Both the position numbers and the translations under genes were made by a program. Below, in pieces: positions 21,146-33,684 of a stretch of DNA of 64,000 nt (within the stretch, counting starts at the first letter, position 1; each line of letters starts with the position of its first letter). The stretch covers positions 1-64,000 of the forward strand of contig NZ_LJZS01000012.1 of the NCBI RefSeq assembly GCF_001314875.1, given 5' to 3'. The notes under the pieces are model-generated. The model saw nothing but the letters and a program-made list of their open reading frames with translations. It did not search any database and was not told the origin of the DNA. This DNA comes from Halomonas sp. HL-48. Lineage in GTDB: Bacteria; Pseudomonadota; Gammaproteobacteria; Pseudomonadales; Halomonadaceae.

Positions 21146-24841
<3,696 letters not shown>

Positions 24842-25133
24842 GGCGGGGAATGCTCTCCAGCGTTTCAGTCAAAAATGGGGTTGTTAGCGTCGTCAATTTC
24901 AAGCCCCAACGGGTCAGCGGCGCACTATCATAACAAAGCGGGTCAGGCGGGGCAGCAATGTATTGCCTCGAATGCAGGGCGGCATTAGTTAAAGAAAGGG
25001 GGTATTATCGGTCACTCAGAGTGAATAGCCCAGTAAAACAGTCGGGATTGTGTCGGCGGCCGGTTTTGCTTACCATAGACACAAATGACATGTGAAGTGG
25101 CCACGCCACTGCCACGGGAGGAAGACACCCCTC

Positions 25134-25757
25134 ATGACCGAGACTACCGAAGCCGATACCAACGTCGATACGCAAGGTATTGATATTACAGATAGTGCAC
25201 AGGATTACCTGGCAGAATTGCTGGAAAAGCAAAATGTCGAAGGGATTGCCGTGCGCATTTTCATTACCCAGCCGGGCACGCCCTACGCGGAAACCTGCCT
25301 GGCCTACTGTCGTCCGGGGGAAGAAGAACCCACCGACGTGAAGCTGGAACTCGACAAGATCAACGTCTTTCTGGACAAGAACAGCCTGGCGTTCCTCGAA
25401 GAGGCGGTTGTCGATTTCAACGCCGACCGCATGGGCGGCCAGCTGACCATCAAGGCGCCCAACGCCAAGATGCCCAAGGTCAATGCCGACAGCCCGCTGG
25501 AAGACCGCGTCAACTACGTGCTTTACAGCGAAATCAACCCGGGCCTGGCGGCCCACGGGGGCGAGATCAAACTGGTTGAGCTCACCGAGCAAAACATGGC
25601 GGTGCTGGCGTTCGGCGGCGGATGTCAGGGCTGCGCGGCCGTGGATCTGACCCTCAAGGACGGCGTCGAGAAAACGCTGATGGAGCGTATTCCTGAGCTG
25701 GCAGGCATCCGAGATGTGACCGATCACTCGGATACCACCAACGCCTACTATCGTTGA
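25134..25757 (+). CDS. nfuA: Fe-S biogenesis protein NfuA
   Basis: 207 residues: an N-terminal degenerate A-type (IscA-like) domain and a C-terminal Nfu domain with the cluster-binding CxxC at Cys164 and Cys167 ([10 protein letters not shown]). NfuA delivers 4Fe-4S clusters to enzymes, especially under oxidative stress or iron shortage. The ATG at 25134 is preceded by GGGAGGAAG. Divergent from metH, followed by a strong terminator. Confidence 0.95.
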
Positions 25758-25779
25758 TCCTGACGGTTCTATGTCCCGC

Positions 25780-25808
25780 AAAAAGCCCAGCAAACGCTGG
25801 GCTTTTTT
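25780..25808. terminator. Bidirectional Rho-independent terminator
   Basis: Stem AAGCCCAGC / GCTGGGCTT, AAAC loop, with A-run before and T-run after. It separates nfuA from the convergent KfrA-like gene. Confidence 0.92.
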
Positions 25809-25831
25809 GTATCTGTGCGTTTTGCAGCTGA

Positions 25832-26872
25832 CTAATCCTGCTGATCGTCCGAGGCTTCGTCCCGCTGATGCGACAGCGACGTAGGCAGGTTGGTCAATTG
25901 CTGCTGCATGGCGTCCATGCGTGACCACAGCTGTTCCTGCCAGGCTCTTTCCCGCGTTTCGTGCTGCTGTGTCTGACTGGCGAGGGACGATTCCGCCGCA
26001 TCGCGTTTCTGAATAGCCTCGTCCAGGCGCTGCTGCAGGGTTTCCAGTGATTCTTGTAGCTGGCTCCGCGCCTGACGCTGAGCGTGTGCCTCCAACTGCT
26101 GTTCATGCAGCGCGCGCTCCAGCGATTTCACCTCGTCAGCCAGCGCTTCGCTACGCTTGTCCGCCTGTTTCAAGCGCTGTTGGTAGGCGCTTTCTTCCTG
26201 CGCGCGCTCCTGCCGGGCGCTATCCAGCAAGCCCATCAACCGATCTTCGGCGGCCTCATGGCGCTGCTCTTCCTGAGCCAGGCGCGTCTCCCACTCGGCC
26301 TGCTGGCGATTCAGCTGCTCGGCGTGGTGTGCCTGATGTTCGGACAATTGCTGCTGGGCGCGCTCGTGGGCCGCTTGCCATTTGGCCACTTCGCTACATG
26401 CTTCATCTGCCTGCGCTCGCCAGTGGGATTCGTCCGACTGACTGGCGGCGAGGTCGCGGCTGAGCGCTTCCACACGGGTTTCGGTATGCCGCAAGTGCTC
26501 TGCCAGGGCGCTTTCGCGCTGCTCCGCGTTGGCGGCTCGCTGGTCAGCGTCGTTTGCCTCAAGCCGGGCGGCCTCTATCTGACGGTCGGCTTTTTCGCGG
26601 TAGTGGTGCAGGGCCTGTTGAGCGGCTTCCAGGGCTTCTTTCCACAGCTCGCCGGCCAGGCTGGCGACGGCCTCGGGCACGCCTTTGGGCGGCGGCACGT
26701 CCCGGTTGTTATCCCGCTCGATGCGCCACTGACGAAAATGTTCGCTGATGGTGGTGTAGCTGCCGGTACCCAGCACTTCCCGAATACGCTGCACGCTCGG
26801 GCTATCGCCCCTGGCGAGCAACGTGTCGATGGCCTGCTGAACATCGGAGTACTGAATGCCACTGCGTGCCAT
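25832..26872 (-). CDS. KfrA-like coiled-coil DNA-binding protein (TnpT-like partner of a tyrosine recombinase)
   Basis: 346 residues. Residues 1-100 form a KfrA N-terminal-type DNA-binding domain (QYSDVQQAIDTLLARGDSP, then VLGTGSYTTISEHFRQWR); the rest, about 80-330, is a long Gln/Glu/Arg/Ala-rich coiled coil. KfrA regulates plasmid partition genes; TnpT, the accessory protein of the TnpS recombinase in Tn4651-like transposons, has this coiled-coil character and the same divergent position. AGGAG lies 8 nt before the ATG at 26872. GC content and codon use resemble the neighbours, so it is not a very recent arrival. Divergent from a tyrosine recombinase gene. Confidence 0.85.
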   Translation of the reverse strand: MARSGIQYSDVQQAIDTLLARGDSPSVQRIREVLGTGSYTTISEHFRQWRIERDNNRDVPPPKGVPEAVASLAGELWKEALEAAQQALHHYREKADRQIEAARLEANDADQRAANAEQRESALAEHLRHTETRVEALSRDLAASQSDESHWRAQADEACSEVAKWQAAHERAQQQLSEHQAHHAEQLNRQQAEWETRLAQEEQRHEAAEDRLMGLLDSARQERAQEESAYQQRLKQADKRSEALADEVKSLERALHEQQLEAHAQRQARSQLQESLETLQQRLDEAIQKRDAAESSLASQTQQHETRERAWQEQLWSRMDAMQQQLTNLPTSLSHQRDEASDDQQD

Positions 26873-26936
26873 GGAAGGGCTCCTGTTGCGGGATTGGATG
26901 GCGCTGATTGTGCCGCTATTTATATCGCAAGGCAAT

Positions 26937-26951
26937 ATTACGTAATACGTA
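26937..26951. promoter_or_regulatory. Short palindrome with repeat (candidate operator)
   Basis: ATTACGTAAT (26937-26946) is a perfect 10-bp palindrome, and TACGTA recurs at 26946-26951. It lies about 65 bp before the KfrA-like gene start, where an autoregulatory operator for a KfrA-type repressor would be expected. Confidence 0.4.
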
Positions 26952-26976
26952 AAATGTAATTTATTTATCTAAAAGT

Positions 26977-27016
26977 GTATAAATTCAAGATTACTCGTAT
27001 TATCTTGAATTTATAC
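26977..27016. repeat. 40-bp palindrome, candidate recombinase core site
   Basis: Perfect 15-bp arms GTATAAATTCAAGAT (26977-26991) and ATCTTGAATTTATAC (27002-27016) flank a 10-bp asymmetric centre (TACTCGTATT). Geometry is that of a tyrosine recombinase crossover site: two inverted binding arms around a short spacer. It lies in the intergenic region between the divergent KfrA-like and recombinase genes, where TnpS/TnpT systems keep their recombination site. No T-run follows, which is against a terminator. Confidence 0.7.
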
Positions 27017-27073
27017 GGGGTAAAGGGCAGACTTGGGTCACTAACCTGCAATTGAATTGGATAAAAAGAAGGC

Positions 27074-27101
27074 AAGAGGGAAGAGGGAAGAGGGAAGAGG
27101 G
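27074..27101. repeat. Heptanucleotide tandem repeat, four copies of AAGAGGG
   Basis: Four perfect head-to-tail copies of AAGAGGG followed by a partial AAGA, ending 30 bp before the GTG start of the recombinase gene. The purine-only tract could alter promoter spacing or ribosome access if copy number changes by slippage. Confidence 0.85.
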
Positions 27102-27130
27102 AAGATAATAGGGGACAGCGAGGAGAAAAG

Positions 27131-28294
27131 GTGTCAATGGAAACGTGGGACAATACAGCTATCGCCAACGTTATATCACCGCTGAAAAGCCTCGGCGGTT
27201 CGCCCGCGCTGCCGCACATTACCGCCACCACGGACGTGGAGGCGGTATCAGCGTGGCTGGCCGAATATCAGCAAAGCCCACAGACCTGGACGTGCTATCG
27301 CCGCGAGGCCGAGCGGCTGTTGCTTTGGCTGACGCACCAGGGAATGACGCTTGGGCAGGTCAATCGCGAGATACTGCGCGACTTCGAACAGTTCCTGGCC
27401 GACCCTCAGCCAATCGCCCAGTGGGTAGGGCCCACCAAGCCACGCCAGCATCCTCAATGGCGGCCTTTTCGCGGAGGGCTTTCGCCGAGCAGCCGCCGAC
27501 AAAGCCTGATTATTCTGCAGGGGCTTTACAGCTGGCTGGTGGAAGCCGGCTGGGTGCGTCATAACCCGTTTCGCCTGATGCGCGATAAATCACGCCGTTT
27601 GAACAATCAGACACAGCGGATTGAACGCTATCTGGAGCGCGAGCTTTGGGAGTGGTTCTGGCAGTGGCTGAACCAGCCGGCCGGGCAGGGCGAACGCGCC
27701 GCTTATAAAAGCGCCCGGCGACGGTTCATCTTTGGTTTTGCTTATCTGTTGGCACCTCGGGTGAGCGAAATGGCCGAGGCGCGCATGGGTGACTTTCAGC
27801 AAAGCGAAGGGCGCTGGTGGTGGTCTGTGGTGGGCAAGGGCAGCAAGATCGCCCGCATTCCGCTACCGGCGGATATGCAGGCGAGTCTCGTCGAGTGGCG
27901 GCGCGTTCTGGGTCACCAGGGCATGCCCGCGCACCATGACGATACCCCGGTTATTCGCGCCCTGGACGGGCAGCGCGGCATTGGCCAGAACCAGCTGTAT
28001 CGGCTGATACGCGATACCTTCAATGAGGCGGCCGATGCACTGCAAATCGCCGAGGGCAGCCCGGCGTATGTCGCCGCGTTGCGCAAGGCTACCCCGCATT
28101 GGTTACGCCACACCTCGATTACCCATCAGGCCCAGGCGGGCATCAGTCTGCGCCACCTGGCCGATAGCGCGCGCCACTCGCGTCTGGATACCACCGCCCG
28201 CTATCTGCATAACGAAGCCATCGAGTGGCACCATGAACAACAGCGTCATCAGATCGCACCCAGGGCCACCCAAGACGCTACCGAAACGTTATAA
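27131..28294 (+). CDS. Tyrosine recombinase/integrase (TnpS-like)
   Basis: 387 residues: an N-terminal SAM-like core-binding domain (about 35-145) and a catalytic domain (about 165-365). All catalytic residues are visible: Arg210 in APRVSE, Lys in VVGKGSKIARI, His323-x-x-Arg326 in HWLRH, His349 in ARHSRLDTT and the nucleophile Tyr358 in TTARYLH. It should be active. GTG 27131 and ATG 27137 both fit AGGAG at 27121. It is divergent from the KfrA-like gene across a 258-bp region holding a 40-bp palindrome, which points to the TnpS/TnpT arrangement rather than a phage integrase; no phage, excisionase or transposase genes adjoin. Confidence 0.9.
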   Translation: MSMETWDNTAIANVISPLKSLGGSPALPHITATTDVEAVSAWLAEYQQSPQTWTCYRREAERLLLWLTHQGMTLGQVNREILRDFEQFLADPQPIAQWVGPTKPRQHPQWRPFRGGLSPSSRRQSLIILQGLYSWLVEAGWVRHNPFRLMRDKSRRLNNQTQRIERYLERELWEWFWQWLNQPAGQGERAAYKSARRRFIFGFAYLLAPRVSEMAEARMGDFQQSEGRWWWSVVGKGSKIARIPLPADMQASLVEWRRVLGHQGMPAHHDDTPVIRALDGQRGIGQNQLYRLIRDTFNEAADALQIAEGSPAYVAALRKATPHWLRHTSITHQAQAGISLRHLADSARHSRLDTTARYLHNEAIEWHHEQQRHQIAPRATQDATETL

Positions 28295-28332
28295 TGGGCG
28301 ATATTTCATGCCTCAACGCTAAAGGAATCACC

Positions 28333-28752
28333 ATGAGTACGTCAGGTGCCGAGCTCGCCCAGCAGGAACTGATCGAAGAATTCGACATGTTTGATAACTG
28401 GATGGACCGTTATCAGTACATTATTGACATGGGCAAACAGCTACCCGACTTCCCTGATGAATGGAAAACCGAACAGACTAAAATTCAGGGGTGCCAGTCA
28501 AACGTCTGGATGCACCATGAAGCGCAGGGCGACAAGCTGATCTTCAAGGCCACGTCCGATGCGGCGATTGTCTCCGGGTTGATTGCGGTGTTGCTGCGCA
28601 TCTACAGCGAAAGGACGCCGGATGAAGTACGCCACACCGAGCCGCACTTCATGACGGATCTGGGCCTGGATAAACACCTATCGCCTACGCGCAGCAACGG
28701 GCTGCATGCAATGCTGGAGCGCATCTACCAGGTTGCCCGGCAGTCTGCCTAA
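28333..28752 (+). CDS. SufE family cysteine desulfuration protein
   Basis: 139 residues, SufE/CsdE family. The sulfur-accepting cysteine is Cys54 in IQGCQSNVW. Such proteins take persulfide sulfur from a cysteine desulfurase (SufS or CsdA) for Fe-S cluster assembly. No suf operon is next to it, so CsdE-type use is also possible. The ATG at 28333 has AAAGGA 6 nt upstream. The gene ends with a 4-bp overlap against the convergent yidD. Confidence 0.92.
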
Positions 28753-29096
28753 TCGCGGGTAGAGCGGGGAGAAGAAGGGGGGCGAGGGCAAGCGTGATGA
28801 TCGCCTTCGTCGTCTTCCCGGCATAGCGCTTCGCTGCGTCCGCCGGGCACCGGGTCCATGCCGCCGGCACTGCCCGGGTGGCATTTCACTATGCGCTTGA
28901 TGGCCATCCAGGAGCCTTTCAGCGGCCCATGGACCTGGATCGCCTCGACAGTATACGCCGAACAGCTTGGCCAGAAGCGACAGCGAGGCCCAAGCAAAGG
29001 GCTAAGCGTGTACTGATAGACCCGCACCAGGCCCACCAGAGCATGGCTGGCCAGCCAACGAGGGCCTCTAATTAGCGCCCGCCCTAAGGTGTTCAC
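28749..29096 (-). CDS. yidD: Membrane protein insertion efficiency factor YidD
   Basis: 115 residues. The YidD core is unmistakable: [33 protein letters not shown] and [20 protein letters not shown] Cys/His-rich and polar tail follows. YidD usually lies in the rpmH-rnpA-yidD-yidC cluster; here it follows hisI, with its GTG start overlapping the hisI stop (GTGA), so it is read from the zur-hisI-yidD transcript. Confidence 0.93.
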
Positions 29097-29563
29097 GACG
29101 ACTTGCCGTACAGATCGGCAGGATCGATGATCGGCGAGCTGTTGATCGTCACGTCTTGATCCGTCAGCGACAGATAAAAGCAGCTCCGCCGTCCGGTGTG
29201 GCAGGCAGGCCCGGTCTGCTCGACCTGGAGTAGCAGGGTGTCGCCGTCACAGTCTAGCGCCGCGCCTTTCAGGTGCTGCTGCTGCCCGGAGGATTCGCCC
29301 TTGCGCCACAGCTTGCCCCGCGAGCGCGAGTAATAGCAGACACGATGCGTTTGCAGCGTTTCTTCCAGCGCTTCGCGGTTCATCCACGCCATCATAAGCA
29401 CTTCGCCAGTGTCGTGCTGTTGGGCAATGGCTGGAAGCAATCCGTCAGCATTGAACTGCACCGCGTCGAGCACCGTGGCTAACGCGGGCAGGGCGTCGGA
29501 GGGGGAGGCAGCTTCAAGGTCCTTGAATAACTGTCGGTTCGCCTGAGGCTTGACTGAGGACAT
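29093..29563 (-). CDS. hisI: Phosphoribosyl-AMP cyclohydrolase
   Basis: 156 residues, monofunctional HisI without HisE. It opens the adenine ring of phosphoribosyl-AMP in histidine synthesis. The zinc and substrate motifs are intact: [15 protein letters not shown], Cys105 in LDCDGD, Cys121 in GPACHTG and Cys128 in SCFY. No hisE or other his gene adjoins; instead it begins one base after a zur-type regulator gene, which suggests zinc-responsive expression or a second HisI copy, both inferences. Confidence 0.93.
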
Positions 29564-33461: not shown

Positions 33462-33564
33462 AATAAGGTACATCCTTAAACAATAAGAGGATGAATGATA
33501 AGGAGTAGTCAGACCCATTGTCCAACACCGTATGATGATTTCACTGGCCATCAATCATATTTAA

Positions 33565-33580
33565 CATAATATATATTATG
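33565..33580. promoter_or_regulatory. 16-bp perfect AT palindrome in a divergent intergenic region
   Basis: CATAATATATATTATG is fully self-complementary. It lies about 100 bp upstream of both the retropepsin operon and the DUF3833 lipoprotein gene. It may be an operator or simply an AT-rich promoter element. Confidence 0.4.
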
Positions 33581-33684
33581 CGAACCGTTGGGTAGGAGTG
33601 GATAACGATTGGCGTCGGGCCCAACTCCTGGGATAAACTCGACAGCTGTTGTACGAGCCATCTTGACTATAAAGGAAATGCCCA

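Follow-up and report, generated by a model that had tools for sequence, protein, structure and literature searches.

Why should a bacterial chromosome keep a tyrosine recombinase gene back to back with a gene for a KfrA-like coiled-coil protein, between nfuA and sufE, and what purpose does the palindrome in the gap between them serve? We addressed this question in a stretch of 64,000 nucleotides from Halomonas sp. HL-48 (contig NZ_LJZS01000012.1, positions 1 to 64,000; the window), a genome whose closest named relatives are Halomonas and Vreelandella. The open reading frames, the Pfam matches and the location of the palindrome bear out an arrangement that an earlier note had read from the bare sequence, with the recombinase (Rec, P0001) and the KfrA_N protein (P0002) encoded divergently around an intergenic region of 258 bp (26873-27130). 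On balance we favour the explanation that the pair and the site between its genes constitute a settled chromosomal site-specific resolution system near the replication terminus, a module of the Tn3/plasmid type whose function we infer. The argument turns on the following features, of which the array and the dif-like site did not figure in the earlier note.

25832..26872, minus strand: KfrA-like protein P0002, a KfrA_N coiled-coil DNA-binding protein of 346 amino acids, ATG start (PF11740, E 6.7e-28)
26937..26960, plus strand: accessory array ATTACGTAATACGTAAAATGTAAT, predicted to bind a protein of KfrA/TnpT type and fixed in phase relative to the core
26983..27010, plus strand: predicted crossover core ATTCAAGATTA-CTCGTA-TTATCTTGAAT, within the perfect palindrome 26977-27016
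27131..28294, plus strand: Rec (P0001), a tyrosine recombinase of 387 amino acids, Xer-like simple recombinase, GTG start (PF00589, E 7.1e-14)
33559..33584, minus strand: dif-like site (XerCD type), with 1 mismatch to a gammaproteobacterial dif pattern

The palindrome has perfect arms of 15 bp (26977-26991 and 27002-27016) with 10 nt between them, and can be read in the manner of dif as 11-bp arms around a less conserved 6-bp centre (11-6-11). With up to 3 mismatches, the core pattern occurs at one place in the window, where 0.00 are expected from shuffled windows. A search of 13 whole genomes, 11 from the window's genus and 2 from a second one, found the core at a single place in each. A gap-free alignment of 57 loci on the core revealed two conserved blocks, one from about -50 to -20 that contains the TACGTA array and one from 0 to 28 that is the core itself. 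Across these loci the distance from KfrA to the core varies between 98 and 307 bp and that from the core to Rec between 66 and 8763 bp; as the spacing of array and core is constant while these flanking distances vary, the array stands at a fixed phase to the core. The arms of the core are conserved, the 57 sites have 29 different 6-bp centres, and the arm TTATCTTGAAT agrees with the dif half TTATGTTAAAT at 9 of 11 bases, as counted by eye. By analogy, this combination of a recombinase core and an accessory array at fixed phase is the anatomy of a resolution site. The array pattern matched once in the window (0.01 expected). A search that tolerated up to 2 mismatches detected it in 9 of 11 genomes, in each of them at the KfrA-Rec locus and, in G144 and G146 only, at one extra place. 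Note that at 2 mismatches this pattern is not very specific and weak sites are indistinguishable from background; its backwards control also matched, at 2 places per strand in G000 and at one each in G146 and G080.

The fates of the two blocks differ within the family Halomonadaceae. Rec was matched in 127 of 151 family genomes, including one remnant (G091) and three copies with an in-frame stop (G117, G102, G122), and the KfrA N-domain in 148, such that the pair is co-conserved across the family although KfrA outlives Rec. In 40 stretches, namely 39 family stretches with Rec or its remnant plus the window, sufE was always the next of ten query genes after Rec. KfrA lies upstream within the stretch in 38 of these, and about 9 kb and about 19 kb away in G037 and G018, where the core has stayed beside KfrA in spite of the other genes that separate KfrA from Rec. 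A core that remains with KfrA while Rec is 9-19 kb off is not simply the promoter of Rec. At loci L157 and L158 the DNA between the KfrA-side core and Rec, about 9 and 19 kb, holds genes that look ordinary by eye, and the core is not duplicated in L157.

We examined the locus in 76 of the 151 genomes and counted the core as present when no more than 6 of its 22 positions were mismatched and it lay no farther than 700 bp from the start of KfrA. It is present in 57 of 57 Rec-positive loci, 55 of them with 3 mismatches or fewer, and absent from 19 of 19 Rec-less loci, where the best candidates have 7-11 mismatches (Fisher's test, 2.6e-18, a statistic that ignores relatedness). The Rec-less loci belong to four genera, g4 (15 genomes), g17, g24 and g19 (two genomes, of which one retains a Rec remnant), and would reflect about four or more losses of Rec, counted without a species tree. 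In all 19 the TACGTA motif is still found beside KfrA by eye. Since the core is lost with Rec while the motif persists, and since the core stays by KfrA at the split loci, the core goes with Rec and the array with KfrA. In genus g4 (L140-L153, L051) KfrA occupies the nfuA-sufE locus without Rec or core, and a TTTACGTAA-spacer-ATACGTAA motif is seen in nearly all of these loci.

The dif-like site in the window lies 5.3 kb from the pair and is the only one in this genome, and the backwards control gave none. A first search located such a site in 32 of 33 family genomes, among them G101 and G091, both of which lack a working Rec, and additional searches located more of them. Among 34 Rec-bearing family genomes searched, dif was found in 32, in G022 only with a relaxed pattern, and in all 32 it lies on the 3' side of Rec at a distance of 3.7-32.7 kb (median 7.1 kb). 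By this closeness to dif, the core site is near the replication terminus in 32 of 34 family genomes. The orientation of dif relative to Rec is reversed in G074, G037 and G018 (L047, L044 and L045) as compared with the other 29. On 20 of the 30 contigs of known length Rec falls within 0.44-0.56 of the total; the remaining contigs may have a different starting point. The genome of the window has two further Xer-type genes, which reach 325.6 and 307.7 bits with the XerC model, short of the 335 that it requires; we read them as XerC and XerD.

The recombinase itself has the full set of catalytic residues that the note had ascribed to it: R210, K236, H323, R326, H349 and Y358, which we take to be these residues, are invariant in 31 of 31 aligned family members. 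In comparisons of the window gene with five relatives, the ratio of nonsynonymous to synonymous substitution rates (dN/dS) over the 4 measurable pairs spans 0.09-0.25 for Rec and, in these pairs too, 0.10-0.31 for KfrA; it is 0.02-0.11 for nfuA and 0.04-0.08 for sufE; these values are rough, with dS saturated in the fifth pair and near or above 1 throughout. As judged from these alignments, Rec is under purifying selection with its catalytic residues kept. Its best NCBIfam match is XerC, at 65.6 bits versus a cut-off of 335 (XerD, 45.1 versus 329.6), and an assignment as XerC or XerD orthologue was rejected because Rec falls below both cut-offs and into a separate clade. In the tree, with the Shimodaira-Hasegawa-like approximate likelihood ratio test (SH-aLRT) as its only measure of support, the 31 family Recs stand on one side of a branch (95-99) and the Xer proteins form another group (99), while TnpS forms a very long branch of its own outside the Rec clade, in a placement that is unsure. 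L103, L107, L111 and L112 were left out for their long branches, and L071 and L097 as too short. A grouping with phage integrases had been named beforehand as fatal to the idea of a module, and we found phage relatives to be few and weak: 26 of 50,697 phage records match Rec, and among the eight matches listed one Klebsiella phage record reaches 33% identity, with a score equal to the Tn4401 matches, and the others 28%. As relatives from plasmids and chromosomes beyond the family come closer, at 42-45%, Rec was rejected as a phage integrase. Sequence searches of the PDB yielded four weak matches for Rec (three Xer-type, one chain named for another molecule) and nothing for P0002, and an AlphaFold2 model of Rec from 10 sequences was poor (mean predicted local distance difference test score 49.5) and was not used.

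Outside the family the distribution of Rec is patchy. At E 1e-40 there were 4 outside-family matches among 293 genomes sampled from the order, of which 12 are listed family members, and 17 among 369 genomes sampled from the class, of which 3 belong to the family; about half of these matches are more remote, with 28-34% identity; the KfrA N-domain, at E 1e-12, was matched in 18 of the 293, with 6 of these outside the family. Of 24 outside-family loci, six carry the same core arms with up to 3 mismatches (L095, L096, L100, L101, L102 and L088). L088 is a Halioglobus plasmid, and the module of L102 is immediately followed by a Tn3 transposase (PF01526). Palindromes with other arms occupy a similar place in L085 (a plasmid), L092 (beside a Tn3-like transposase) and L105, and the remaining loci of the 24 showed no clear core. 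Relatives carried together with a Tn3-family transposase are L102, L088, L092, L108 and L113, so that copies of the kind the earlier note had proposed to look for, beside a transposase, do exist among close relatives. Upstream open reading frames were inspected at 15 outside-family loci. The eight that looked like KfrA were scanned with Pfam and all eight scored as KfrA_N; among the unscanned seven, those of L087 and L092 look KfrA-like or near-identical to a scanned one, and those of L099, L103, L086, L108 and L109 do not look like KfrA, which means that remote relatives of Rec often stand without a KfrA partner. The recombinases of L105 (G653) and L092 (a Comamonas plasmid) are very similar, and the G653 copy is located at 0.50 of a single contig of 4.14 Mb.

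In the mechanism that we propose, Rec would bind the two inverted 11-bp arms of the core and exchange strands within its 6-bp centre, and the KfrA-like protein would bind the TACGTA array upstream, as TnpT reportedly binds the accessory site of rst. The latter protein would restrict productive exchange to two copies carried by one dimer or by paired sisters. A site present once per chromosome, close to dif, would regularly meet no partner other than the sister copy; the system would therefore most likely serve to resolve dimers of the chromosome, or sister termini that remain linked, alongside XerCD/dif. The module would descend from, or share an ancestor with, the KfrA_N-recombinase modules of Tn3-family transposons and plasmids. 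More tentatively, we propose that two independent site-specific resolution systems operate next to each other at the Halomonadaceae terminus, XerCD/dif and a co-opted KfrA-recombinase system of Tn3/plasmid type with its own composite site, in which a transposon cointegrate resolvase may have been turned into a second machine for dimers or sister termini, with a KfrA filament former as its accessory.

Several observations weigh against this proposal. With XerC/XerD-type genes and a dif-like site present, a second system for dimer resolution would seem superfluous. Rec is missing from genus g4 and from some other genomes, and its dispensability in some genera together with a seemingly intact XerCD/dif counts against an essential role. 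Judged by dN/dS, both genes of the pair also evolve faster than the flanking nfuA and sufE. Nor does the core's centre vary freely: its first base is C in 57 of 57 sites and others are biased. Furthermore, dif was not found in two of the 34 Rec-bearing family genomes (G054 and G002), and as the block from metH to dif, nfuA and sufE included, is conserved as a whole, the closeness of Rec to dif may be inherited synteny. Outside the family, dif was detected on the contig of Rec only in G486 and G280, at a distance of about 94 kb in the latter, and most genomes gave none. Relaxed dif patterns failed to locate a site in several genomes. The case of G486 nevertheless argues for more than inherited synteny: here the pair is found among other housekeeping genes (by eye), with dif-like sites 14 kb off on both sides. 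On contig 1 of this genome the two sites, at 158083 and 187405, are in opposite orientation and 29 kb apart with KfrA-Rec near their midpoint; a second genome of this genus, G622, likewise carries two dif-like sites, each on its own contig.

The wider occurrence of the KfrA N-domain as compared to Rec, and the TACGTA motif that remains at the Rec-less loci, could also mean that the leading part falls to the KfrA-like protein, as a nucleoid or segregation factor that binds the array at the terminus and forms filaments, and to which the recombinase is an optional add-on. Plasmid KfrA proteins would provide the precedent, as they form filaments, autoregulate and aid partition according to the available text of PMC8124265, and those of RA3 and R751 bind iterated motifs according to that of PMC7783346. 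We nevertheless regard this as unlikely, since persistence of the array is explained equally well by autoregulation, the fixed phase of array and core connects KfrA with recombination wherever there is a Rec, and the near confinement of the array pattern to the KfrA-Rec locus in the 9 of 11 genomes that have it, weak as its specificity is, does not support KfrA sites scattered in the manner of MatP. The recurrence of the same core arms on the Halioglobus plasmid and beside a Tn3 transposase could point to another role. The pair would then reside in the host as a resolver of, or receptor for, incoming elements that share its core, and would resolve or capture cointegrates of transposons and multimers of plasmids instead of chromosome dimers. 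In tyrosine recombinases, however, differing centres block crossover, and the many centre types, which vary between species, should do so here; four rescanned loci with extra DNA near the core (G037, G051, G013 and G143) moreover gave one core each, and we consider such a role improbable.

A palindrome in a divergent promoter region, with a partly constrained centre, might merely be an operator for Rec or another regulator, with no recombination taking place. We give this little credence in view of the 11-6-11 geometry with its less conserved centre, the agreement of one arm with a dif half, the persistence of the core beside KfrA where Rec is 9-19 kb away and its absence from all 19 Rec-less loci examined. 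Least credible of all is the remnant of an integrated element that had been considered for this locus at the outset, here a decaying orphan of TnpS/TnpT type from an integrated transposon: in spite of the kinship of the module with Tn3-family elements, it is found family-wide at one locus, its recombinases form one clade with intact catalytic residues under purifying selection, the neighbouring genes tested are not mobile-element genes, and TnpS is not matched. A settled resolution system remains the explanation that we prefer.

The pair is flanked by the following genes.

25137..25757, plus strand: nfuA, the upstream neighbour (TIGR03341, 311.5 bits, above cut-off)
28336..28752, plus strand: sufE, the downstream neighbour (PF02657, E 3.1e-48)

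In line with the prediction of a chromosomal, transposase-free pair, no transposase or other mobile-element gene was detected among eight neighbour genes tested (six between Rec and dif, as well as nfuA and metH), and Rfam gave nothing at gathering level for 24800-29200. The frame of P0002 has a longer alternative open reading frame from a TTG at 26935, and a short tandem repeat of AGGGAAG-type units is located at 27070-27104, between the core and the start of Rec.

If the proposal holds, a second resolution module from another recombinase branch is kept near an intact dif across a bacterial family, whereas the single-recombinase systems to which we compare it, XerS-difSL, XerH-difH (PMC2731167) and XerL (PMC9765430), are described in the available parts of these papers as occurring in bacteria without XerCD. 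The Halomonadaceae would then offer a natural experiment on how one terminus manages two recombination sites, and possibly a route from transposon resolution to chromosome maintenance. A literature search retrieved no description of a Halomonadaceae system of KfrA, recombinase and core, with subscription papers mostly outside its coverage; KfrA-type proteins sharing the N-domain are already known in Halomonas spp. (PMC7783346, in the text available), and a Tn4651-type tnpS/tnpT pair is reported from a Halomonas plasmid (PMC3606827, likewise in part), which is a different element.

The closest likeness is to TnpS/TnpT-rst of the Tn4651-type Tn3 transposons, as suggested at the outset. TnpT of Tn4651 (pWW0, L094:4464-5462) scores as KfrA_N with E 2.6e-26, although the accessible passages of a 2020 paper (PMC7157771) describe it as without apparent homology. 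Its placement among KfrA_N proteins would link the filaments of plasmid partition to the topological control of recombination. P0002 is 39% identical to this protein over 100 amino acids (two-sequence BLASTP, E 2e-14), and the gap of Tn4651 contains an accessory palindrome beside tnpT with TACATA/TATGTA units that resemble the TACGTA array. As far as the available text of PMC7157771 and PMC4619425 goes, both systems combine a divergent recombinase and KfrA_N helper with an accessory motif on the helper side and a core on the recombinase side; in rst, according to PMC4619425, which cites other work, TnpT binds the accessory site and TnpS the core. The suggested kinship therefore stands for the layout and the helper. 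It fails for the recombinase, as the best two-sequence BLASTP match of Rec to the one TnpS compared has E 2.5, and membership of Rec in TnpS was rejected on sequence. The Halomonadaceae pair further differs in having no tnpA nearby and in its conserved chromosomal locus near dif.

The tyrosine recombinase TnpR of Tn4401 type (L115) likewise belongs to a Tn3-family element and is 33% identical to Rec, but has a DUF3701 domain according to the available part of PMC8138268, and no KfrA gene is annotated or matched in the L115 stretch. Plasmid KfrA of RA3, R751 and RK2 shares with P0002 the N-terminal DNA-binding domain, the coiled-coil tail and iterated binding sites, in the passages available of PMC8124265 and PMC7783346, whereas P0002 is chromosomal, conserved at one locus and paired with a recombinase and a core. 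With XerS-difSL, XerH-difH and XerL, in the portions of the papers cited above, the pair has in common a single Xer-like recombinase and a palindromic site near the terminus that is often gene-linked; it differs in coexisting with XerC/XerD-type genes and dif and in having a KfrA_N accessory with its own array. By analogy, the system of the Halomonadaceae would thus act like TnpS/TnpT-rst and like XerS, XerH and XerL, but stands apart from the former by its recombinase and the missing transposase, and from the latter by the presence of XerCD and its KfrA accessory.

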